A stretch of 64,000 nt of DNA from Halobaculum saliterrae (GTDB lineage: Archaea; Halobacteriota; Halobacteria; Halobacteriales; Haloferacaceae). The DNA is taken from positions 1-64,000 of the forward strand of contig NZ_WUUS01000012.1 of assembly GCF_009831625.1 (NCBI RefSeq), written 5' to 3'. Of this stretch, positions 2,173 to 15,106 are shown piece after piece. Under the pieces are notes generated by a model. That model was given only the letters and a program-made list of their open reading frames with translations, was not told the DNA's origin and did not search any database. The translations under genes were made by a program, and so were the position numbers. The stretch's first letter is position 1; each line of letters starts with the position of its first letter.

Positions 2173-2303
2173 ACGCTTCGTCCGGAGAGCATCCATAAGT
2201 ATTTCCTGTCATAGTGGGCCTCATCTCCGGCGACTGTGAATTTATTCACCCTGACACTCGGAGAAGATGCGGGTTATCTTTGTATCGCCAGACAGCGATA
2301 TAT

Positions 2304-2975
2304 ATGGTAGCCACACGAGAGAGGGCCCTTAGCGAACGCGAGTTCGAACTATTGTTAGAAGGAGCAGGGCGGATAGGAGATACGCAACGGAGGCTCGAAA
2401 CACGAGCGGCCATTCTCCTTGGAGGCCGTCTTGGACTTAGACCAGGAGAAACAACGCACTTGTCGACAACGTGGGTTGACATAGAGCGGCAGATGATCCA
2501 GATCCCAACACAGGAAAACTGTACGAAGGGACGGGATGGCGGTATCTGTGGCTACTGTCGGCAGGCGGTGAAACAACGGCTGGATCACAATCCCAATACG
2601 GATTTCAAGAGCTTTGCTGAGCGTTATTGGCTCCCAAAAACAGAAGCCGCATCTCGAACAGTTCCGTACCACTTTTCATATAGAGTCCGAGTCGCGGTTG
2701 AACTACTACTCAACGAACATGGTGGCTGGCCCTATTCGTTCTCGACTTTACAGCGGCGACTGGAAACCGCCCTTGAATTGTCCCCAGAACTGTCTAACGA
2801 CGCAACCTCATTACACGGACTACGTGCCACAGCAGCGTCGTACCATGCGGGAAGGGGCTTAGACCTTCCTGCACTCCGAGCAATGTTCGGGTGGGAGGAC
2901 ATCACGACTGCACGTCAATATTTGAATGTTGATGGAGCGATGACCCGACGAGCGCTGGACAGTATTCATCAGTAA
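2304..2975 (+). CDS. Tyrosine recombinase (phage-integrase family)
   Basis: The 223-residue product has the whole catalytic set: the first Arg in GRLGLRPGE, a Lys in the PKTEAASRT beta-hairpin, HxxR in LHGLRATAASYH, Gly-Trp in MFGWEDI, and the nucleophile Tyr in TARQYLNV. A Cys cluster (CTKGRDGGICGYC) between the first Arg and the Lys suggests a zinc knuckle. I chose the ATG at 2304 because a T-rich box lies about 26 bases upstream; a GTG at 2214 would add 30 residues. No separate arm-binding domain is visible, so this is a catalytic-core-only recombinase. It is convergent with the partial methyltransferase gene and is the obvious candidate to act on the 56-bp inverted repeats nearby. Confidence 0.85.
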   Translation: MVATRERALSEREFELLLEGAGRIGDTQRRLETRAAILLGGRLGLRPGETTHLSTTWVDIERQMIQIPTQENCTKGRDGGICGYCRQAVKQRLDHNPNTDFKSFAERYWLPKTEAASRTVPYHFSYRVRVAVELLLNEHGGWPYSFSTLQRRLETALELSPELSNDATSLHGLRATAASYHAGRGLDLPALRAMFGWEDITTARQYLNVDGAMTRRALDSIHQ

Positions 2976-3024: not shown

Positions 3025-5376
3025 TTACTCCAGCGGGCCTACATCTCCGAGATGAGTGTATTTCTCCGCGACCTTCTCGAAGTACGCTTCCGTCATAATT
3101 CGAGGATTCGACACTCTATGGAAGTCATCAAGGACGAACTGCATTTCCTCCTCATCCAGCCCATATGCGTGGAACACGGCCGCGTCGACTTCGGCTTGTA
3201 GCTCACGCCGAGTCTCCATATCCGTCGCCGGCTCAATCCCGCCAAGTCGCTCACGCATCTCGGTAAACTCCTCACCATAACAGTTGAGCTTCGCCGCTCG
3301 ATCAGCGATGTAATGGAACCAGTCGTCGCCGTCAGTGAGTCGAGGGGCCTGTGACTCCTCAAACTTGTACTTCGAGGCGTGGGAATCAACTTTTGTCCGC
3401 ATCAAGAAATCAAAGGGGATACTGTTGATCAGACCAAGCGCGACGAAAAGCTCCTTATCGGTGAAAACACTGTCGTAAGCGCTGTGCATCGGGAATTCCG
3501 AAAGGTCGTCCTTGGTAGGGTTCGCCTCGAATGGACGGACCGTGTACAGCGTATGGACGACGACTCCACCGGGCGGGATAACAGCTGCAATGAGTGTGCG
3601 TTCATCCGTTGCACGAGCGACTTCACGGAGCACAAGCCGGTAATCAGAGCTATGGAGACGGACGTCTTCCACGGAAAGTTCGGGGCGGTCGAATTCCTCG
3701 GTTAGCAACCGATTGACGAAACGCTTCTGGGAACTTGACGGGAGATGGCTGAACTCAGGGTCATCAGCGAACTTGTTGTAGATAGCCTTCTTGAGGCTGA
3801 TCGCATCGTCCCGGGCACGGAAGTTCTTCTCTCGAACGCGACGCTTTGCGCTCAGCTCCTCGTTATCCTCATCGACACTCCACAAAGAGATGGGCTCGAG
3901 GTCGTCGACGTAGGTCGACTCATAACAGAATTGGTGGATATTCTTTCCCTGATAGACCGGATAATCCCCATTGGATTCGTCTTCGATGAATCTATCCCGA
4001 TCTCGTCCCCGATCCAGTTCCTTGTACAGGACCGTACGCCAAGCATCTTCAATTTCAGCCGCTAATGGTGGTGTCTGGAGAATTTTATCTAGCACTGAGA
4101 CCTCCTGCTGTTTCTCGATGTTAGGGAAAATTCGAGCTCCTGGAGAATACTCTTTGAGGATGCGCGCTGGAATTTCTAGAGCTACGTCGTCAATCGATCG
4201 AAGAGCGTCAACGGAAGTCTGATGAAAGATTCCATGGACAGTATCAGTGCTTCCCGCTGTTCGGAGCGTAACGATACCGAAATTATATCTATTGTCTATG
4301 TCGGAGAAGATACCTCGGTTTTCAAATCCGATGATACTCTGAATCTCCGACTCTTCCAAGGCATGTACTCGCAGATCCTTCCCAGCGGCGGCATTAAAGA
4401 ACGGACCAGGAAGCAGCTGTGAAACATAACCACCATCTCTGACAATATCGTAGACGCGCTCGAAGAACAGTAGAGACAGGTCGTTCGTCCGTGCAACCTG
4501 CTGACCCTCTACGCTTGGCGTCTGGTACTCATATTCTCCACTCTGGTTGATATAGGTCGCTTGCCGTTCCTTGTCCCGCTGGAACTTCTTCCATTCGGCA
4601 GCGATTTCAGGGTTCTCTAAGAGCTCCTCTACCTTCTTGTCCTTTTCATCTGGCGGGCGGCTACGAAACTCAGTATCGTACTTTGGGAAGAAGTCCGTCC
4701 GGTATGGCTTCAGCTCATCCCACGGTGGGTTTCCAATGATGACATCAAAGCCGCCTTCGCGATAGACTGTCGCGAACTCGAGCACCCAATGAAACGGTGA
4801 GAACTCCTCTAGTTCCTCAAGAGAGACATCCTCGTCGACAAGTTCGTTGAACTGATCGCGAATCTTTTCATTAAGCTCCTCGCTGTGAGTGTCGATTTTT
4901 CGCTCAGCCATTTTACGAGCATTCTGCGCTTCACGGGCAGAATCCGCTGCTCGATGGCGGTCCTGTTCCCTGATGATGTCCTCATAGAGGTCTTTGACTG
5001 CAGTTCCGACACCCCAATTCGAGAGTGAAGCATCGCCGGCATCCTCCCGTGCGACTTCTTGGAGCTCGGTGAACCCGATCAGCGAGTTACCCTGACGGAT
5101 GTTGAAATCAATATTCGGGAGTGGTTCGACCTCGTTCGGTTCATCCTCGATATCAGCGACCATCGACAGCCACAAGCGTAGTTTGCAGATCTCGACTGCT
5201 CCGTCCTCGATATCGACACCATAGAGATTGTTAAGGATGATAGATCGCTTTGCGAAAAGTGACATCCCCCCGTGTCCCTCTTCGATACTCTCTAATTCTT
5301 CACGACTACGACTCTCCAGCTCCCAGCCTTGCCCTTCAGATTCGAGCCGTTGGAAATACTCAATGCATTGCATCAA
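3025..5376 (-). CDS. Partial Eco57I-type methyltransferase: C-terminal specificity cassette lacking motif I
   Basis: The frame encodes 783 residues from a TTG at 5376, or 782 from the ATG at 5373. It aligns end to end with residues 436-1203 of the complete gene at 5537-9148 but lacks everything before that point, including the SAM-binding DPAVGSG motif. It keeps the catalytic NPPW motif (residues 216-219) and the C-terminal target-recognition part (FLMRTKVDSHASKYKFEESQ). Similarity begins exactly at a 56-bp block identical to the other copy in inverted orientation, then drops. On its own the product should not methylate, so it reads as a silent alternative C-terminus that inversion could join to the shared promoter and N-terminus. 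A simple decayed duplicate is the alternative, but the frame is fully open. Confidence 0.8.
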   Translation of the reverse strand: MMQCIEYFQRLESEGQGWELESRSREELESIEEGHGGMSLFAKRSIILNNLYGVDIEDGAVEICKLRLWLSMVADIEDEPNEVEPLPNIDFNIRQGNSLIGFTELQEVAREDAGDASLSNWGVGTAVKDLYEDIIREQDRHRAADSAREAQNARKMAERKIDTHSEELNEKIRDQFNELVDEDVSLEELEEFSPFHWVLEFATVYREGGFDVIIGNPPWDELKPYRTDFFPKYDTEFRSRPPDEKDKKVEELLENPEIAAEWKKFQRDKERQATYINQSGEYEYQTPSVEGQQVARTNDLSLLFFERVYDIVRDGGYVSQLLPGPFFNAAAGKDLRVHALEESEIQSIIGFENRGIFSDIDNRYNFGIVTLRTAGSTDTVHGIFHQTSVDALRSIDDVALEIPARILKEYSPGARIFPNIEKQQEVSVLDKILQTPPLAAEIEDAWRTVLYKELDRGRDRDRFIEDESNGDYPVYQGKNIHQFCYESTYVDDLEPISLWSVDEDNEELSAKRRVREKNFRARDDAISLKKAIYNKFADDPEFSHLPSSSQKRFVNRLLTEEFDRPELSVEDVRLHSSDYRLVLREVARATDERTLIAAVIPPGGVVVHTLYTVRPFEANPTKDDLSEFPMHSAYDSVFTDKELFVALGLINSIPFDFLMRTKVDSHASKYKFEESQAPRLTDGDDWFHYIADRAAKLNCYGEEFTEMRERLGGIEPATDMETRRELQAEVDAAVFHAYGLDEEEMQFVLDDFHRVSNPRIMTEAYFEKVAEKYTHLGDVGPLE
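5318..5373 (-). repeat. 56-bp perfect inverted repeat, copy 1 (methyltransferase crossover site)
   Basis: Read on the minus strand this block starts ATGCAATGCATTGAG and is identical over 56 bases to 6842-6897 on the plus strand. Identity stops sharply on both sides (G versus C before, G versus A after), although the flanking coding sequences are only moderately similar. The first 13 bases contain the perfect palindrome CAATGCATTG. Confidence 0.9.
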
Positions 5377-5536
5377 CTGAGCATCTGGCTATTGGCTGTT
5401 TTTCGACTTGAACTACGAGTGCTGGTGAAATACGAGCTGTTTCTTGCACTCTATTCAACAAGTGCATTGACCAGTTCAGTCAAAAGTCACCCTCATATCC
5501 ATCATTTTCATATGAGTAAAGCAACTTTCAGGTGGT

Positions 5537-8500
5537 ATGACTCTCCAGCAGATCACCGCATCCGATATCGCGGGCTGGGACTCTTTACAGGATATAGCGA
5601 ACACCTTTGAAAAACGCGGGCTCAAACCACGCCCGAAACTAGGGGGCGATAACGAGCTCGTAGTCCAGCTTGATGATGACGAATTCATCGTCATCGTCAA
5701 TGCTGGCCCCGGTGAGACTGCCACGGACTTCAAACCGGAAAATCGCTCACGGCACACCAACCTCGTTGCTACCAACGACTTCGAGAATTTCACCTTCATC
5801 ACACGAGTTCGGAGCTGGGAAGGCCAGCAGCACGGCCGAATCAAGCATCAAAAGATTTCGTTCTCAAAGGAGCAGTTCAGGCGGGACAGCGGAGAGAAGA
5901 ACACCATTCTCCAGAAACTGAACGCAATCGAGTACGGTTCCTCTGCTGCGATATACGATACGCTCTACGACACGCAACAGGTTGTCAAGGAGTTCTATGA
6001 ACAGTTCGAGGAACTCCGGACAGATCTCATTCAAGAAGTCACAGGCATCCCTGACGATCGTGGTGATGCGAAGCAACGATATGTGCAGGTCATTCTTGAC
6101 CGGATGATCTTCCTATACTTCATCCAGGAAAAGCGCCTTCTTGATCGAAACCCGAATTACCTCCACGAACAGCCGAATGAAGTCGTTGACGAGGGTGGTG
6201 ACCACTACGAAGAGTTCTACGAACCGCTCTTTTTCGAATACCTGGCAGAAGACAAGCAGAACCCTGACTTCGGTAGCCTTCCGTATCTGAACGGTGGATT
6301 GTTCGCAAAGAATCCCGTCGAAGAAGAGTTCGAGGACGCGAAGTTAGGTGGCCCTGCCGAGGAAACGAACGAGCTCTTCGACGATATCCTCGACTTCCTC
6401 TCCGACTGGAACTGGAACGTTGACGAACGACTCGACATCGTCGATCCCAAGAACCTCTCCCCGGCGATCTTGGGCCACATCTTCGAGCAAACGGTCAATC
6501 AGAAGGAGATGGGAGCGTACTACACGCCGGAAGAGATCACGGGGTTCATGGCCCGCCGGACGATCCATCCGTATCTGCTCGATCAACTCAATGAGGCTGT
6601 GGACGCAGACTACGACGAGGTCGACAATGTATTCGGATTCCCCGTACCCGAGTCAGATAGTGGCGCAGAAGCTGTAGCTGATGGCGGAACCATAACTCAG
6701 CAAGTTCCAACGGAAAACGTTCAGACCAGCCATGTGGAGACTCTCTACCACGATATTCTGAAGGAAGCACACATTCTCGATCCCGCCGTAGGAAGTGGCG
6801 CCTTCCTGCTCGCTGCACAGGAGGTGCTGATGGACCTATACATGCAATGCATTGAGTATTTCCAACGGCTCGAATCTGAAGGGCAAGGCTGGGAGCTAGA
6901 ATCCAGAACACGGGAAGAGATAGAGGAAATCGAGTCTGGAAAAGGCTCATCATCACTCTACGCAAAGCGAACGGCCATCCTCAACAATTTGTACGGAGTC
7001 GATATCGACGAAGGTGCTGTTGAGATTTGCAAGCTCAGGCTCTGGTTGTCGATGGTCGCTGATATTGAGGACGAACCGAGTGAGGTGGAGCCGCTCCCCA
7101 ACATCGATTTCAATGTACGGCAGGGGAACAGCCTAATCGGTCAACTCGATACGGACATCGAGAGTAACGAAGACGGAGACAGCGATCTCGATTCTTGGGA
7201 GGTAAAAACTCGTTTTGAGGACGTGAAAGAAGCCATCAAGAAGCACAAGAAAGCGGAGACCAGTGTTGAAGCTCAAGAATGGCGGAAAGAGGCAGAAGAT
7301 AGAATAGAGGAACACCGGGACAAATTTGACGAAATCCTTCGGCGGGAATTCCAAGACGCTGGCTTTGACGATATAACGATCGAGGAAATTCGGGAGTGGT
7401 CCCCCTTCCACTGGCCGCTGGAGTTCGCCGACGTCTTCGAGAAGGGTGGATTCGACGTGTTCATCGGGAACCCGCCGTGGGACATGCTCTACGCGAATCG
7501 CGACGACTTCTTCATCCGCTACGATGAGCAGTTCCGTACCTATCCGTCGGAGGAAAAGGACGGTGTGATGGAAGACCTCCTCTCAAACCCTGAAGTTGCG
7601 TGGGAATGGGAGGACTACAAGGAATCGATGGAAACGCAGGCAGACTTCTTCACACAGGGAAATGTCTATAAGCTCCAATCTCCGGTGGTAGGCGGTCGAA
7701 CGATGCCGACAAAGAACGAACTTTCGGCTCTTTTTCTTGAGCGGGTCTTCAGACTCTCCAGAGACGGCGTGAAGGTGAGTCTGCTCCTCCCCGGTACTAT
7801 CTTCGGGGGAGTAATGGGGAAAGACCTCCGAATGCATCTGCTGGACCACACGGACGTGAAGAATCTCATCGGGTTCGAGAACAAGGGTGTCTTCGAGGCT
7901 ATCGACGATAGATATCGGTTCGCGATTCTGACGTTCGAATATGGGGGGAAGACATCAGCTCTTCGGGGGATATTCAACCAACGTGACATGGATGTAGTCT
8001 ACCGGATCGAAAATGAGGCAGTCAATATCCCGCGCGACGTACTCGTCAGTTATTCTCCAGAGGGGGGAATCTTCCCATCCATCACCTCGCAGATCGAAGT
8101 AAGCGTCTTGGAGAAGGTAGTTGAGCAGCCTTCCTTGGGTGAAGATTTAGAGGAGACTTGGACAGTTGATATGCTCACTAAGGAGTTCGTTGAATCGACT
8201 GATAAGGATAGGCTCCAGACATCGCCGGAGGAGGCCGACTATCCCGTCTACGGCGGCAAAAATATCCACCAGTTCCAGTACGATAATACCTACACAGATG
8301 CGTTAGATGGACCGCAGTACTGGAGTCGGGGGATGTACGATCCACCGAATAGTGCTCAGTACCGTGTTCGAGAAAAGAAATTCAACAGGGGTAATCTCAA
8401 ACGGGCAATCTACGACGCCTTTGGAGGTTCAGAGACGAGCAAGTCTCAAGTTCAATTCGTAGATGAACTACTCGAAGAGCACCGTGGTCACGGACTTGAG

Positions 8501-9148
8501 GAAGAAGATGTCCTGCTCGATTGTACTGAATACCGAATCGGCATTCGAGACGTTTCTCGAGCCCGGGACGAGCGGACGATAATAGCTACGGTACTTCCGA
8601 AGGACGTCATCTGTCTCCACACCATTAACACGTTCAAGCCGTTCGCTATTGAGCCTGAAGAGGAACACCTCACAGAGTCCCCACTTCGGTCACCCTACGT
8701 CCGGCGATTTACGGATCAAGAACTCTTCGTGGCAACGGGGCTCCTGAATAGCATTGCGTTCGATTTCCTGATGCGGACCAAAGTCGAGACGCATATCGTC
8801 AAGCGCGAGCTACTGGAATCCCAGCTACCACGCCTCACCGACGGAGAGGACTGGTTCCATTATATCGCTGAACGAGCTGCCCGATTGAACTGTTACGGGG
8901 AAGAATTCAAAGAAATGCGTGAGCGACTCGGCGGAATCGAGGCAGCGATAGAAGATCAAGAACGTAGAGAATTACAGGCTGAAATCGACGCGGCCGCATT
9001 CCACGCGTATGGCCTGAAACGTCGTGACGTGAAGTTTGTCCTCGACGACTTCCATCGCGTTGAGAATCCGAAGCTGATGGACGAGATGTACTTCGATCTG
9101 GTCTTGGAGAAATATGATCTGCTGGATCAGAAGGGGCCCCTACCGTAG
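5537..9148 (+). CDS. Eco57I-type adenine-specific DNA methyltransferase, complete
   Basis: The product has 1203 residues. An N-terminal helical region (VILDRMIFLYFIQEKRLLDRN) precedes the SAM-binding motif ILDPAVGSGAF (DPAVGSG from residue 415), the catalytic NPPW (645-648) typical of N6-adenine methylation, and a long C-terminal target-recognition region. Size and motif order match single-chain Eco57I/PglX-like enzymes in which modification and specificity are in one polypeptide; I see no clear PD-(D/E)XK nuclease at the N-terminus. The ATG at 5537 follows GGTGGT and a T-rich box near 5505-5512. The inverted repeat at 6842 falls in frame at Met436, so an inversion would give a 1217-residue protein with the other C-terminus. 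It is convergent with the PLD-helicase gene, 8 bp apart. Confidence 0.9.
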   Translation: MTLQQITASDIAGWDSLQDIANTFEKRGLKPRPKLGGDNELVVQLDDDEFIVIVNAGPGETATDFKPENRSRHTNLVATNDFENFTFITRVRSWEGQQHGRIKHQKISFSKEQFRRDSGEKNTILQKLNAIEYGSSAAIYDTLYDTQQVVKEFYEQFEELRTDLIQEVTGIPDDRGDAKQRYVQVILDRMIFLYFIQEKRLLDRNPNYLHEQPNEVVDEGGDHYEEFYEPLFFEYLAEDKQNPDFGSLPYLNGGLFAKNPVEEEFEDAKLGGPAEETNELFDDILDFLSDWNWNVDERLDIVDPKNLSPAILGHIFEQTVNQKEMGAYYTPEEITGFMARRTIHPYLLDQLNEAVDADYDEVDNVFGFPVPESDSGAEAVADGGTITQQVPTENVQTSHVETLYHDILKEAHILDPAVGSGAFLLAAQEVLMDLYMQCIEYFQRLESEGQGWELESRTREEIEEIESGKGSSSLYAKRTAILNNLYGVDIDEGAVEICKLRLWLSMVADIEDEPSEVEPLPNIDFNVRQGNSLIGQLDTDIESNEDGDSDLDSWEVKTRFEDVKEAIKKHKKAETSVEAQEWRKEAEDRIEEHRDKFDEILRREFQDAGFDDITIEEIREWSPFHWPLEFADVFEKGGFDVFIGNPPWDMLYANRDDFFIRYDEQFRTYPSEEKDGVMEDLLSNPEVAWEWEDYKESMETQADFFTQGNVYKLQSPVVGGRTMPTKNELSALFLERVFRLSRDGVKVSLLLPGTIFGGVMGKDLRMHLLDHTDVKNLIGFENKGVFEAIDDRYRFAILTFEYGGKTSALRGIFNQRDMDVVYRIENEAVNIPRDVLVSYSPEGGIFPSITSQIEVSVLEKVVEQPSLGEDLEETWTVDMLTKEFVESTDKDRLQTSPEEADYPVYGGKNIHQFQYDNTYTDALDGPQYWSRGMYDPPNSAQYRVREKKFNRGNLKRAIYDAFGGSETSKSQVQFVDELLEEHRGHGLEEEDVLLDCTEYRIGIRDVSRARDERTIIATVLPKDVICLHTINTFKPFAIEPEEEHLTESPLRSPYVRRFTDQELFVATGLLNSIAFDFLMRTKVETHIVKRELLESQLPRLTDGEDWFHYIAERAARLNCYGEEFKEMRERLGGIEAAIEDQERRELQAEIDAAAFHAYGLKRRDVKFVLDDFHRVENPKLMDEMYFDLVLEKYDLLDQKGPLP
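6842..6897 (+). repeat. 56-bp perfect inverted repeat, copy 2 (inside the methyltransferase gene)
   Basis: This is the plus-strand partner of 5318-5373. It begins at codon 436 (Met) of the complete methyltransferase gene and lies between motif I and the catalytic NPPW motif. The segment between the two repeats (about 1.47 kb) holds the promoter and the N-terminal third of the gene. Confidence 0.9.
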
Positions 9149-9156
9149 CTCCCGAA

Positions 9157-12100
9157 TCACTGTCCGACAACCCCCCAGCATACGAGCTTCGCTTGTACAT
9201 CACTCTCTCCCATCAGTTTTGTCTGGTATTCAGTAGAGGCTTCGACGTTCTCTTCCAAGAACTCCTCAAGCTGCCTGAGGAACTCAACAGTCGGCCACTC
9301 TGGGAAGGAGTCGTACTGCTCATTCTGACGAAAGATCTCCCGTAGAATTCGATCTTCATCCGTGTTCGCCAGCTTTACCTCCTGCAGCCGCTCTTCGATA
9401 TCGTTAGCCCATTCTCCTATCGTTTCGAACTCTTCAACAGGAGCCGGCTCATCGCCGTGATTCGGCTGAACGTAGTGACTGATAAAATCGAGGATCGTTT
9501 CCTGTTCCTTCGAGAAGGCCTCTCCCTGTTTGAAAGCACCCTCAACTTGGCCTTCTCGAATCACCTCAAGGCGCTCGTCAAGCACTGCTTGAATTTCACC
9601 GCGATTCGATAACACCGTATCTGGATTTCCGGTAATCGGTTCGCCGTCAACTGAAGGGCCGATGTTGAGCGTGCTCACGGGCCGCTCTTTGACCTCGTCG
9701 GCGAAGGGCTTGTAGTAGAAAGCACGACGGACGCGACCAAGCGGGGACTCGTGGTCATCATCGTCGAACCAGAGGTGGGCAAGGGCGAACACGCCCGGAC
9801 GAGGACCGGCATCGTGGTCAGTTACATTCGTGTAGAGGAATTCCCGTTCTTCGGGCGGGTCATCAAAGAAGTCCTCAGCGTACTCGAAGTCTTCCGCGGT
9901 CAGATCGTAATCCTCGTTTAGTTCTCGCTTCAGAAGGTACCGTTCGAATGCAGCGTGCTCATTACTCCCAGCGTTGCGGAGGAGCGGGTTCTTGCTCGTG
10001 TCGTCGAGTTCATTCACGTCGTCAATTTCACGGGACTTCTGGAGGGAGTCCTCGATCTCGTCCACCTGTAGTTCCCCAATCGTCTTCTCCGTGTCCACAC
10101 CTGTCTTTTCCAGAATCTGGTCTTCATTCGGATCGAGGATGTTGTTCTCCTTCCCGACGATGAGCGCGATGTCGTTGATTTTTGCTTGAAGCCGTTTCAG
10201 AAGCTTGATAGCCGCCTCGATGTCGCCGTCTGGGTAGAAGTTGTGGACGTGTTTCTCGGCGGTACTCCCGATCCGGTCGACTCGCCCGACACGCTGGACA
10301 ATCCGCATCGGGTTCCACGGCAGGTCGTAATTGACCACCACATGAACGTCCTGAAGATTAACCCCTTCACTCAGCGTGTCAGTGGCCACTACGTACTGTA
10401 GCTCTGAATCCCCCGACTCAGCGAGCGTTTGCTGATAGCCTGACGCCTCAGGGGCAAAGCGTTGAATGATGTCCTGCTTATTCTCGTCGCCACCTTTGAC
10501 GACGGCACTGTTCGCCTCGGTAAGTGGTGAATCCACGTTGTCACAGAGAGTTCGATAGACGTAGTCTGCAGTTGCCCGGTACTGAGTGAAGATGAGCACT
10601 TTCTGGTCGTGATCAGAGAGGACATCTGCAAGTCGGTCGATCTTCGGGTCGCGGAACTCGCGGAGTGAAAAGACGGCCTCGTAAAAGTCGCGTGTAGCGG
10701 AGTCAACTTCGCTCAGGTCACTATTCGGGTAGAGAATCGGATTCATCTCTTCTTCAGGAATATCTGGAAGGGCACCAGCGTCGTGGTCAGCGAGCCATTG
10801 CCGCGTGGAAACCGCATAATCGCTCACATCACCCGCATCACGGGCGACATCACCGATGAACTGCGAGAGAAAATACGAGAGAAGGGTGAGGTCCTCCCTA
10901 ATGTACGTCTTCACCTCACCGATGGTGGCGTCTGCTAGTTCATCTCCCTCGGTATCAGCTCCTTCTTCCGATTGGATAGCGGTGGTATCGAAACCGAATT
11001 CTTCGAGTGTTTGTTCGAGATCTTCAGCAGCGTCTGCTCCTTCGACAAAGTCACCGAGTTCAGAGTCATCCCTCTCCCGAACAGTTCGGAGCATATCGAT
11101 GTCTTCGTCCTCTGGGAGTTCACCAAGAAGGCCGAGAAGCTGGCGTTCGCTCTGATGCAGCGTCTCGATCGACTGGACGAACGCGTACGTTGAGGACTCG
11201 AGCCGTTTGAGGAGGTTCAGCTTGTAGAGGGCTTTCAGAGTGCTCCCCGCTTTCGGGTTTTTGACTGTGATGTGGGGAAGGTGGAGGGCGTCCATCACGT
11301 CGGGAAGCATCCGATAGATTGGCTGGTAGGCCGCCGGCAGGGAGTACTGTTGCTTGTTGAGTTTCGGCGGCTTGAAGCTCATCTCGAAGTCTTCGCTGTC
11401 CTGAATCTGGTCTTTGACGTGCTTACGCGTCCGGAGAACCATCACTTCGTTCAGGATATTCGAAATCTCAGAGGAGTGTCGCTGGAGCTGCTCGGTGATT
11501 TCTTGCTGTTCGTCGTCGTCGACCTCTTCTTTCCCGGCCGCGATGCGTTTTCGCGTCTCCGAGAGTTCGATGTATTCGTCGAACGCGTCAAAGTCGAGTG
11601 AGGCCTTGTTCCGAAGTTCCTCCGGGCTGGTGAACAAGCTGATGAGGTTCTTCAGGTCGGTAGCGCTGTTATTGATGGGGGTCGCAGTCAGCATAATCAT
11701 CGTCTTTCCGCGGAGCTGCCTGAGATTGGCGTGTCGTCGCGTCCCCTTGTAGTCGTCATCGTGGTCTGGGTTCGGTCGCCACTTCCCATAATTCCGGAAC
11801 CGGTGAGCCTCGTCGATAAGCAGGACGTCGAACTCGTCTTTGAGATCCTGCACCTCGTCGTAGGAAAGATTCTGGAACTTACTGATACTCATCACATCAA
11901 GGTGCGTGCCGTCCACCTCTAACCCGAAGTACGGATTGCCGTCTTCGTCAGTGTCGTTCTGGAGTAAGTCTTCCCACTGATCAGTCAGGTTAGCAGGGAC
12001 AATGAGGAGACAGTGGTCGCCACGTTGGCGGTAGTCGTGGAGGAGTTCACCGCCAATAAATGATTTCCCTAGGCCGACCGAGTCGGAGACGATGCACCCG

Positions 12101-12963
12101 TTGAACTGTGAGAGCTTTTCCTTTGCACTCTCGTACCCGAGCTTCTGGAAGTAATACAGTGGGCTGTCACGGATGTTAACGTTCCCACTCAGTTCGTCGT
12201 AGGCGAGCAGTTTGTAGAGCTCGAACGGTTCGAGATACGTGCCCAGCTCCTCGGATGACGTCTCCTTGTCGGACTCGTCCTCCTGCTGTTCCTTCCAGTC
12301 CTGGTACTCCTTGCTGTTCTCGATGATTCGGATGATCTCCTCACTAAATTCCTCGGCGTTGGCCCACTGGTTGTCATACCACTCCTCGAACGCTTCGGCC
12401 TTGTGTCGATCCTGACTCGTGAGGTTCAGCTCGATGTTGTTCTGGTGGCCGCTCTTGGTGAAGTTCGAGGAGCCGACAACTGTAGCGCATGGGCGGGTGT
12501 CTTCATCCTCGTCTTGTCCCCAATCTTCGTCATCTTCGAGTGGCGCTCGAAATGACGCACCCTTTGCATGGAAGTAACCGTTTTCAGGATTTCGCACACG
12601 GACGCTCACTTCGCCTTCGGCGATAAAGTCTCGTAGCCGGTCTAGTCGGCCGATTTGAGCGTTATTCAGCTCCGAGATGCTTTCTCTCACCTCTCTTTTG
12701 AGTTCCTCTTTGAGATTCTGCCCCTCACCGATTTCGTCAGCAGTTCCCCTATTCGTCTGACGGCCCATCAAGATCCGAAGTGGGGCGTGGCCGAGATCGT
12801 CGGGGTCAGCCAGGTTCTCAAGGTCTTCCCGGTAGAGGTCGAATCCTGAGAGATAAAAGTATCCAGTTGCGATACGGCCCTCCTCGATCTGGGGAATAAT
12901 TCGTTTGTAAGCGTCTTCTAGTGTTCTGTTGGCGTTATCGACAAGCGGAGGAAGCGAGAGCAT
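9157..12963 (-). CDS. PLD-like nuclease fused to SNF2-type helicase
   Basis: The 1268-residue product starts with a phospholipase-D-like domain: HAK at 132-134 and GSSNFTKSG around 164-172 make one HxK...N active-site half, so the domain would work as a dimer. A superfamily 2 helicase follows: Walker A SVGLGKS (Lys300), DEAH (384-387), LTATPINNS, and motifs V/VI in EGVNLQDVHVVVNYD and RIVQRVGRVDRIGS. The remaining C-terminus is acidic and helical. Such a nuclease-translocase next to a methyltransferase is the arrangement of a restriction module in which the helicase-nuclease attacks unmodified DNA. PglZ, BrxC, DrmA and DrmB-like partners are absent here, so I do not call it BREX or DISARM. 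Confidence 0.88.
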   Translation of the reverse strand: MLSLPPLVDNANRTLEDAYKRIIPQIEEGRIATGYFYLSGFDLYREDLENLADPDDLGHAPLRILMGRQTNRGTADEIGEGQNLKEELKREVRESISELNNAQIGRLDRLRDFIAEGEVSVRVRNPENGYFHAKGASFRAPLEDDEDWGQDEDEDTRPCATVVGSSNFTKSGHQNNIELNLTSQDRHKAEAFEEWYDNQWANAEEFSEEIIRIIENSKEYQDWKEQQEDESDKETSSEELGTYLEPFELYKLLAYDELSGNVNIRDSPLYYFQKLGYESAKEKLSQFNGCIVSDSVGLGKSFIGGELLHDYRQRGDHCLLIVPANLTDQWEDLLQNDTDEDGNPYFGLEVDGTHLDVMSISKFQNLSYDEVQDLKDEFDVLLIDEAHRFRNYGKWRPNPDHDDDYKGTRRHANLRQLRGKTMIMLTATPINNSATDLKNLISLFTSPEELRNKASLDFDAFDEYIELSETRKRIAAGKEEVDDDEQQEITEQLQRHSSEISNILNEVMVLRTRKHVKDQIQDSEDFEMSFKPPKLNKQQYSLPAAYQPIYRMLPDVMDALHLPHITVKNPKAGSTLKALYKLNLLKRLESSTYAFVQSIETLHQSERQLLGLLGELPEDEDIDMLRTVRERDDSELGDFVEGADAAEDLEQTLEEFGFDTTAIQSEEGADTEGDELADATIGEVKTYIREDLTLLSYFLSQFIGDVARDAGDVSDYAVSTRQWLADHDAGALPDIPEEEMNPILYPNSDLSEVDSATRDFYEAVFSLREFRDPKIDRLADVLSDHDQKVLIFTQYRATADYVYRTLCDNVDSPLTEANSAVVKGGDENKQDIIQRFAPEASGYQQTLAESGDSELQYVVATDTLSEGVNLQDVHVVVNYDLPWNPMRIVQRVGRVDRIGSTAEKHVHNFYPDGDIEAAIKLLKRLQAKINDIALIVGKENNILDPNEDQILEKTGVDTEKTIGELQVDEIEDSLQKSREIDDVNELDDTSKNPLLRNAGSNEHAAFERYLLKRELNEDYDLTAEDFEYAEDFFDDPPEEREFLYTNVTDHDAGPRPGVFALAHLWFDDDDHESPLGRVRRAFYYKPFADEVKERPVSTLNIGPSVDGEPITGNPDTVLSNRGEIQAVLDERLEVIREGQVEGAFKQGEAFSKEQETILDFISHYVQPNHGDEPAPVEEFETIGEWANDIEERLQEVKLANTDEDRILREIFRQNEQYDSFPEWPTVEFLRQLEEFLEENVEASTEYQTKLMGESDVQAKLVCWGVVGQ

Positions 12964-13278: not shown

Positions 13279-14057
13279 CAGCTCCGAATCCAGAATAGCC
13301 CTATCGAACCAATCATAACGATTGCACCGATTATTAGCCCGACTGTCGTCGGAGACGGTAGAGAATAGCCTGCACCCGTAAGCAAAGGAGTCAGAATGAA
13401 CCCACCAGCGTATCCTCCGACAGTAAGGTATCCAGCGGCAAGTAGACGGACAAACCACTGTTCGACAATCGTATGCGAGCGGTGATCTGGGTCTTCATCA
13501 GGCCGGGGCTCAACGATTTCCGGATCGGGCTTTTCCCGCTTGAGATATCGCCATTCATCAAGATACATTCGGACGGGAAGGGCAGATTCGATTTGGTTGA
13601 GAATAGCATATCGGGCCTTGTTCAGCCGGCGATACGACTGTAAACTCTGATACCAAAAGTAACAGATCAGACTTCCAAATCCAGAGGCGAATAGAACGAT
13701 TGCAGCACTCGTAGTCGTCAAATTTCCTCGGGCCAGAGCAAAGAGTCCGGCTAGTATCGACGTCAAAATCAAGCCGAAAAATCGGTTCATTTGAACCCGC
13801 TGATTCGCAGTCTCGATTGCCACCTCCCCATAGTGGATGTATTGATCCATCAAGCGGTCCGTCTCTTCGTCGTTCAGATTCGTTAACGGCCCATTCTCTA
13901 CGGCATCGGACTCGGCCGGTTCGGCTGGGTCCCCTCCAGTAACCTCTTCGGGGTGTTCCGGCTCTGTTTCAGGCGTGTCTTTGTCCTCGGTATTTTCGCC
14001 AAGATTTGCATTATTCGGCTCGCTCGCGCCAGAGGTCTCGTCAGTTGATTCGGGCAT
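13278..14057 (-). CDS. Four-helix membrane protein, RipA-like N-terminal pair; putative effector of the TIR operon
   Basis: The 259-residue product has an acidic disordered N-terminus (1-60), an amphipathic helix LMDQYIHYGEVAIETANQRV, transmembrane segments near 93-110 and 116-138, a cytosolic block ending ALPVRMYLDEWRYLKREK, and a second pair near 203-225 and 236-256. The first pair with the SYRRLNKARY...LPVRMYLDEW block resembles a small two-helix membrane family found in defence loci and named RipA-like in automatic annotation. No Macro, SLOG, SIR2 or other ligand-binding domain is visible. Its place directly downstream of a ThsB-like TIR gene suggests that it is a membrane-acting effector. 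That role is inference; the membrane topology is clear. Confidence 0.75.
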   Translation of the reverse strand: MPESTDETSGASEPNNANLGENTEDKDTPETEPEHPEEVTGGDPAEPAESDAVENGPLTNLNDEETDRLMDQYIHYGEVAIETANQRVQMNRFFGLILTSILAGLFALARGNLTTTSAAIVLFASGFGSLICYFWYQSLQSYRRLNKARYAILNQIESALPVRMYLDEWRYLKREKPDPEIVEPRPDEDPDHRSHTIVEQWFVRLLAAGYLTVGGYAGGFILTPLLTGAGYSLPSPTTVGLIIGAIVMIGSIGLFWIRS

Positions 14058-14280
14058 ATTCCGCTAAGGTGTCGTCGAATGTTGCTTTGTGCCATCCTGA
14101 TGATAGGGAACCGTAGAAACAGTTTAGACCCAGACGCTGTTCGGAAGCCGCCATTACGCTTTCTGCGTAGTGCCCGTACTGATTGATGAGCATCTTATCA
14201 CGCTCTGGCCGTCTGAGTGAAGATCGTGTACAGCCATCCCCTTGCATTGGGCCATACTCGTCCGAGGGTAGATCATGCAT
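14041..14280 (-). pseudogene. Remnant of a second effector-like gene (79-residue frame)
   Basis: The short frame contains RDKMLINQYGHYAESVMAAS followed by EQRLGLNCFYGSL, which parallels DRLMDQYIHYGEVAIETANQ and RVQMNRFFGLI in the gene directly downstream, and then runs out before any membrane helix. Its ATG at 14280 overlaps the stop of the TIR gene and its stop overlaps the start of the intact membrane-protein gene. The simplest reading is a tandem duplicate of the effector that has lost its 3' part. A short translated linker that couples the two genes is possible. Confidence 0.6.
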
Positions 14281-15106
14281 GCTTCGCGATGGCGTTCACG
14301 ATAGACTTCTGCCGCCAACCGACAATCTCATCCGCTTCCTCCTTTACCACTGCTGGAAGTCGCTTGTTCCCGTTCGGTCGCACACCAATAATGGGTTTCT
14401 CGAAATGGTCTGCCATCTCAATTTCCTCCTCGATCCACTCGCTGTGCGAGACGTACATCCCAGCGACGACGACGACCACATTTGCCTGCCCAACCTGCTG
14501 GTAGAGCTGTTGACGAAGATCATTCTTATCTTCGAATTCCATCGGATCGTCCTCTGGGACACTGAAGTTCTGCCAGTCCAGCCGACTTTCATCGTCAAGG
14601 AACTCCTCAATGCGTTCACGCTGCTCGGAGTACTTCCACGAGTGACTCACAAACACCCGATACGGCCGATCTTCAAGAGGGAGACGCGGCTGCGTCGACG
14701 TGCCGGTCTTATCTGTTGTTGAACCAGATGAAACTAGGCCACCAAGTCCCTGAGCGCCCTTGTATGTGAAATAGCCTGCTATGGCGGTAGCGATAATGAG
14801 TTCCGGGGCGTCGTGCCAAAGGTAACGAAGTGGATCATCGTGTGGATCATGATCGACTTGTTCACCTTTCCAGTCTGCATATCCGGCGAGGAGTTCTTTT
14901 CCGAGGTCGACGACATCGGGGGTTTGCTCGTTTGCGGTTGGAACTGGTGTTGTATCGGAGCCATCAATAGTGTCCTCGAACAGGCCAGCAAACGGATCGT
15001 CTTCCCCGTTTGATTTGATAAGGGCATTCACGTCAAGGCTTCCAGTGGGGCTTTGCACCTCGACGGTCGGGACGTTGGTGACAGGGTCGTTTTCGTTGGG
15101 TGTCAC
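14273..15106 (-). CDS. ThsB-like (MTH538) TIR domain protein
   Basis: The 277-residue product has a disordered N-terminus, a hydrophobic stretch at about 101-125 (possible membrane anchor) and a C-terminal TIR-like domain at 149-270. Diagnostic blocks are YRVFVSHSWKYSEQ, LDWQNFSVPEDDPM, VVVVVAGMYVSHSEWIEEEI and KPIIGVRPNGNKRLP, typical of ThsB TIR proteins of Thoeris, which sense phage and make a NAD-derived signal. The candidate catalytic Glu lies in SEWIEEEI. The start is GTG at 15106, supported by a TATA-like box 26 bases upstream. It heads an operon with the effector remnant, the membrane protein and a small protein. No ThsA-type NADase is present nearby. Confidence 0.85.
   Translation of the reverse strand: MTPNENDPVTNVPTVEVQSPTGSLDVNALIKSNGEDDPFAGLFEDTIDGSDTTPVPTANEQTPDVVDLGKELLAGYADWKGEQVDHDPHDDPLRYLWHDAPELIIATAIAGYFTYKGAQGLGGLVSSGSTTDKTGTSTQPRLPLEDRPYRVFVSHSWKYSEQRERIEEFLDDESRLDWQNFSVPEDDPMEFEDKNDLRQQLYQQVGQANVVVVVAGMYVSHSEWIEEEIEMADHFEKPIIGVRPNGNKRLPAVVKEEADEIVGWRQKSIVNAIAKHA

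Follow-up and report, generated by a model that had tools for sequence, protein, structure and literature searches.

An invertible DNA segment pairs the N-terminal half of a haloarchaeal methyltransferase with alternative C-terminal cassettes beside a halovirus-like recombinase

The stretch of DNA analysed here (the window: 64,000 nucleotides, positions 1 to 64,000 of contig NZ_WUUS01000012.1 in assembly GCF_009831625.1 of the haloarchaeon Halobaculum saliterrae) carries an invertible segment that joins the promoter region and N-terminal module of a methyltransferase to either of two C-terminal cassettes, A or B. The inversion itself is strongly supported. Very probably the locus is a recombinase-driven inversion switch of methyltransferase specificity with a PLD–SNF2 helicase as partner, and from the divergence of the cassettes we infer a change in target sequence. 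The genes lie in the order tyrosine recombinase (+), cassette B (−), repeat arm, promoter region and N-terminal module (+), repeat arm, cassette A (+) and PLD–SNF2 helicase (−). Such switching is of a kind known in bacteria; new here is that what moves is the N-terminal half common to both forms of a single-chain methyltransferase, and that the inversion takes place in cellular archaea.

The locus came to attention through a 56-base block of perfect identity, which the original prediction placed in two otherwise diverged gene copies and attributed to site-specific exchange or recent conversion instead of an old duplication. Arm-to-arm comparison bears out the block: positions 5373..5318 (minus strand) equal 6842..6897 (plus strand) at 56 of 56 bases, and the pair holds no second block of that length, the next longest identical run being 19 bases. 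The abrupt drop in identity said to occur at both edges holds for the inner side (toward 5374 and 6841), where the two copies share no similarity. Outward from the block homology continues, at about 70% identity for 244 columns and mostly 45–65% after that. At 70% identity, a 56-base run is expected about 3 × 10−7 times per 300 columns. The two copies are inverted repeats placed exactly at this homology border. The genes are indeed diverged, but one copy of the block lies in a 783-residue open reading frame (3025–5376) that encodes only the C-terminal part of the enzyme, its N-terminal third being absent. The palindrome reported to open the block, CAATGCATTG, does occur, after the first 3 bases at the inner end (ATG-CAATGCATTG); it is not strictly needed, as another copy of the locus in this genome, on contig C13, carries CAATGTATTG instead.

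The arm at the promoter end (5318..5373, minus strand) leads on its outer side to cassette B and has the inner flank CAGTTG, which is kept in relatives. The arm at the coding end (6842..6897, plus strand) leads to cassette A, has the inner flank CTATAC, starts exactly at codon 436 and encodes MQCIEYFQRLE. Each inner flank is constant whichever cassette follows (the coding-end flank is CTATAT in Natronomonas gomsonensis), which places the join at the repeat. Between the arms, the 1,468-base-pair (bp) invertible segment (5374..6841) is found facing either way between the same cassettes. It comprises the presumed promoter region (5374..5536, plus strand), the 163 bp before the start codon, which are conserved in 13 loci, and the N-terminal module (5537..6841, plus strand; residues 1–435), which contains the S-adenosylmethionine (SAM)-binding motif DPAVGSGAF at residues 415–423 and is about 97% identical among recombinase-bearing loci of the window's class (class 1). 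The result of a sigma-70 promoter scan was set aside, because sigma-70 does not apply to archaea. Cassette A (6842..9148, plus strand), now expressed, has GNPPW at residues 644–648 and a probable target-recognition region, and cassette B (3025..5373, minus strand), silent in the present state, is an intact frame without an N-terminal module. According to Pfam, the full-length product of 5537–9148 is an Eco57I-type, Eco57I/PglX-like adenine methyltransferase. The SAM-binding motif is in the N-terminal module and GNPPW in the cassette, and neither half alone is therefore a complete methyltransferase. In-silico inversion of 5374–6841 yields an uninterrupted N–B protein of 1,217 residues on the minus strand.

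Both orientations are found among natural loci, here denoted by genome (G), contig (C) and locus (L) handles. The second complete copy in the same genome, on C13, is in the opposite state, with its N-terminal module pointing at B; at the protein level, its cassettes A and B are 93% and 97% identical to those of the window. The N-terminal module is joined to the helicase-side cassette in G019, G128 and one end of a Halorussus vallis plasmid record, and to the recombinase-side cassette in G130, G016, G101, G078, N. gomsonensis, Halorussus limi and both Halorussus aquaticus copies. Between G128 and G130, the flipped segment is flanked by matches of 98.1% and 99.6% on its two sides. Cassette B is the expressed half in C13 of the host genome (G000), G130, G016 and N. 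gomsonensis, and its homologues are expressed in L037, L048, L049 and L098. With inverted repeats bounding a segment seen in both orientations, the locus belongs with systems of phase variation by inversion. A strict pattern scan of the genome contigs returned only 7 stretches and is too narrow to serve as a census.

At the assembly level, both orientations also occur within single strains of three relatives: H. vallis, G038 and Halobellus rufus. In the H. vallis plasmid record (NZ_CP100003.1; 167,465 bp), positions 1–46183 repeat 121286–167465 at 99.95–99.99% identity with scattered small indels, and the sole structural difference between the two ends is a 1,467-bp segment that has 0 mismatches once inverted. 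This redundancy is probably an untrimmed overlap of a true circle of about 121 kb, although it could instead be a true duplication. In G038, the coding end enters the recombinase-side cassette (B′) on contig C8, and the first 127 bases of contig C12 are identical to the C8 coding end and repeat before continuing into cassette A; an overlap of this length would be expected, by our inference, at a fork in a k = 127 assembly graph. The same length recurs in Halorussus ruber, where each of two contigs terminates in exactly 94 inner bases followed by the 33 repeat bases that are identical. In Halobellus rufus CBA1103 the promoter end is joined to both cassettes. The assemblies of G078, G046, G450 and G344 also break at or close to the repeat; these breaks were set aside as evidence of mixed states, as a short-read assembler may break there for other reasons.

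Beside cassette B lies a gene for a tyrosine recombinase (2214..2975, plus strand; Pfam PF00589; start possibly at 2304), the probable invertase. It is 41–45% identical to Int1 of the haloviruses phiH, ChaoS9 and phiCh1, and its complete catalytic set, R-K-HxxR-W-Y, is conserved in Int1 of phiH and phiCh1 as well, which places it among the halovirus Int1-like recombinases. The corresponding segments of phiH and phiCh1 are annotated as invertible, and the published accounts report inversion by the central recombinase (PMC6471424, PMC6210493; Klein et al. 2012 as cited there). In family and gene-order searches, recombinases at least 73% identical to that of the window all adjoin loci of the same kind. 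A recombinase is present in 16 of 16 complete two-cassette loci, versus 0 of 11 single-cassette methyltransferase loci (the truncated G432 locus was left out of this count), a co-occurrence whose nominal p of 8 × 10−8 overstates independence because the counted loci are related. Homology and co-occurrence thus suggest that the linked recombinase catalyses the inversion.

In the mechanism we propose, the recombinase would recombine the two arms and invert the 1,468 bp between them, carrying along the promoter region and the first 435 residues with their SAM-binding motif. Each orientation would fuse the N-terminal module in frame to A or to B, and both cassettes bring an NPPW motif and a probable target-recognition region of their own. 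Since either state encodes one complete enzyme, the locus would alternate between two enzyme forms instead of switching on and off. The linked PLD–SNF2 helicase is probably the restriction partner.

An unlikely alternative is that the segment inverts by the host's general homologous recombination between short repeats, with the recombinase a bystander. In its favour, homogenisation extends all along the arms, as it would under conversion: variants are common to both arms of a locus (permutation p ~ 1 × 10−4; 0.9 differences within a locus, 3.1 between loci), which points to a conversion-like process, and simple inversion alone would not yield this pattern. A single fixed recombinase site is also not obvious, given the class 2 loci, which have the same layout with inverted repeats elsewhere in the gene (38–80 bp in G093, G356 and G392; 27–80 bp in L047, L159, L160 and L161), at a GVDI motif about 24 codons downstream of the window's site. 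However, arm identity is limited to the first 25 bp in H. limi and H. aquaticus, 33 bp in H. ruber and 38 bp in G019, which suggests a crossover within the first 25–38 bp of the arm. Lengths of 25–33 bp are short for general homologous recombination. Bystander status also fits poorly with the presence of the recombinase in every complete two-cassette locus and no single-cassette one, and with the inversion of halovirus DNA by its relatives.

The shared arm variants and the sharp block boundaries could also be read as a single recent gene conversion that copied 56 bp between old diverged copies without any inversion. We consider this most improbable. It leaves unexplained both the opposite orientations with constant inner flanks and the linked recombinase, and it is contradicted by the exact flip in H. 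vallis and by the G128–G130 pair. The recent conversion of the original prediction thus survives as homogenisation of the arms, but not as a lone event. Its proposal of site-specific exchange was right in kind, given the opposite orientations in relatives, in the second copy of the same genome and in the plasmid record of a single strain; the block is where an inversion crosses over, and the inverted repeats, invertible segment and recombinase had been missed. Its dismissal of an old duplication stands: that cassette B is a decaying pseudogene beside its parent, with the block kept identical by the conserved motif MQCIEYFQRLE, is hardly credible, because although the motif is conserved in single-cassette enzymes too, the synonymous sites of the block are identical as well, cassette B is intact with a ratio of non-synonymous to synonymous substitution rates (dN/dS) of about 0.05–0.08 against its homologues, and the B cassettes listed above are the expressed half in relatives.

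The two cassettes are 80–88% identical over their first 80 residues and 35–50% identical across much of the middle region. The predicted structure of the methyltransferase (mean pLDDT 71, pTM 0.56) resembles PglX/BrxX and MmeI, and by likeness to these enzymes target recognition would lie in the middle region; the A and B states therefore likely methylate different sequences. dN/dS is 0.03–0.13 for cassette A and 0.04–0.15 for cassette B, with silent and expressed cassettes alike. Purifying selection acts on silent cassettes, as expected if each cassette is often expressed. The PLD–SNF2 helicase (9157..12963, minus strand; Pfam PLDc_2, SNF2-rel_dom and Helicase_C; PADLOC HKD+Snf2) is the neighbouring gene in most related loci, whether or not these carry the switch, which makes the pair a probable defence system of a restriction-modification-like kind, the specificity of which probably became switchable in the recombinase-bearing lineage. 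The function would be virus defence or methylome switching. Beside the helicase, positions 13281–15106 hold genes for an 8xMP membrane protein and a Thoeris ThsB-like TIR protein, and TIR-domain genes near the locus are also found in several related plasmids.

Several observations weigh against a recombinase-driven specificity switch. A search for a symmetric recombinase core site yielded no clean inverted half-sites, the palindrome varies, and in class 2 loci the repeats lie elsewhere in the gene. The link between recombinase and switch consists of homology and of co-occurrence among related loci, and the difference in specificity between A and B is drawn from sequence divergence and analogy. 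The within-strain evidence comes from assemblies of relatives and not from the window's own locus. Silent cassettes are broken in G016 (an insertion) and G101 (a frame break), indicating that switching is not maintained everywhere.

Among known systems, the closest in recombinase is that of the phiH and phiCh1 tail fibres, which has a homologous compact tyrosine recombinase with the same catalytic residues and cysteine motif; inversion there exchanges portions of an active gene with those of an inverted copy that is detached from its start (PMC6210493, PMC6471424). Those are viral tail-fibre systems with the recombinase inside the invertible segment, whereas in the window the recombinase lies outside the segment, the repeats are different and the target is a cellular methyltransferase. 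Inversion switching of methylation specificity is already known from bacterial type I systems, as in Streptococcus pneumoniae, in which a recombinase inverts expressed against silent hsdS specificity genes (PMC4948785, PMC7096588). Those systems shuffle a separate specificity subunit, whereas no hsdS is involved here, the host is an archaeon, and the moving part is a promoter with the N-terminal half that both forms of a single-chain methyltransferase have in common. For archaea, the open-access literature searched, which leaves most subscription papers outside, describes inversion switching of viral tail fibres only and no cellular case.

The methyltransferase resembles PglX/BrxX of BREX in predicted fold (8c45 and 8q56; TM-score 0.37–0.40) and by a weak family match, which at 63 bits falls below the cut-off of 500, and no PglZ was found among the neighbours tested. 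Goldfarb and colleagues reportedly described a pglX inversion in a BREX locus in 2015. The adjacency of a PglX-like methyltransferase and an SNF2 helicase recalls class 1 DISARM (DrmMI with DrmD), but the DrmD match is 143 bits against a cut-off of 610, no DrmA or DrmB was found among the neighbours tested, and the window's helicase differs in its fused PLD domain. As the scores fall short of the family cut-offs and the partner genes are missing among those neighbours in both cases, we rejected filing the locus under BREX or DISARM. The best PADLOC match of the methyltransferase is REase_MTase_IIG; Pfam finds no nuclease domain in its N-terminal part, where a diverged nuclease could remain.

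Related recombinases, 60–68% identical, adjoin two divergent complete Eco57I-type methyltransferase genes in a third class of loci (G014, G136 and G293), in which a short imperfect inverted repeat (16–17 of 20) flanks the intergenic region (L100:4709-4936, L101:7361-7577 and L166:14430-14691). These loci are possibly promoter-flip switches, or alternatively the repeats could be symmetric operators. Across 13 aligned loci, the element ATTGACCAG (window positions 5466–5474, lying 62 bp before the methyltransferase start) does not vary, although the sequence around it drifts, and the similar CATTGACCAG is present in class 2 repeats and the G014 intergenic repeat; the element may be a recombinase or regulator site. 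In Natrinema sp. DC36 (L112:7100-9645), a 1,115-bp inverted duplication of the promoter end and part of the N-terminal module replaces the invertible segment, and an IS6-family transposase gene interrupts a cassette; this switch is broken. That a recombinase family shared with haloviruses switches haloarchaeal methyltransferases in at least three layouts (inversion at MQCIEYF, inversion at GVDI and promoter flip between divergent genes) is a tentative reading, which we hold with slightly more doubt than confidence; if true, it would be a general archaeal epigenetic or defence switch.

At the window's locus, an archaeal cell probably employs a recombinase of viral type to exchange the C-terminal half of what is probably a defence methyltransferase. 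The switch can account for breaks in assemblies and for untrimmed redundancy in the plasmid entries of haloarchaea in public databases, and it opens archaeal phase variation and archaeal phasevarions to direct tests in cultured strains.
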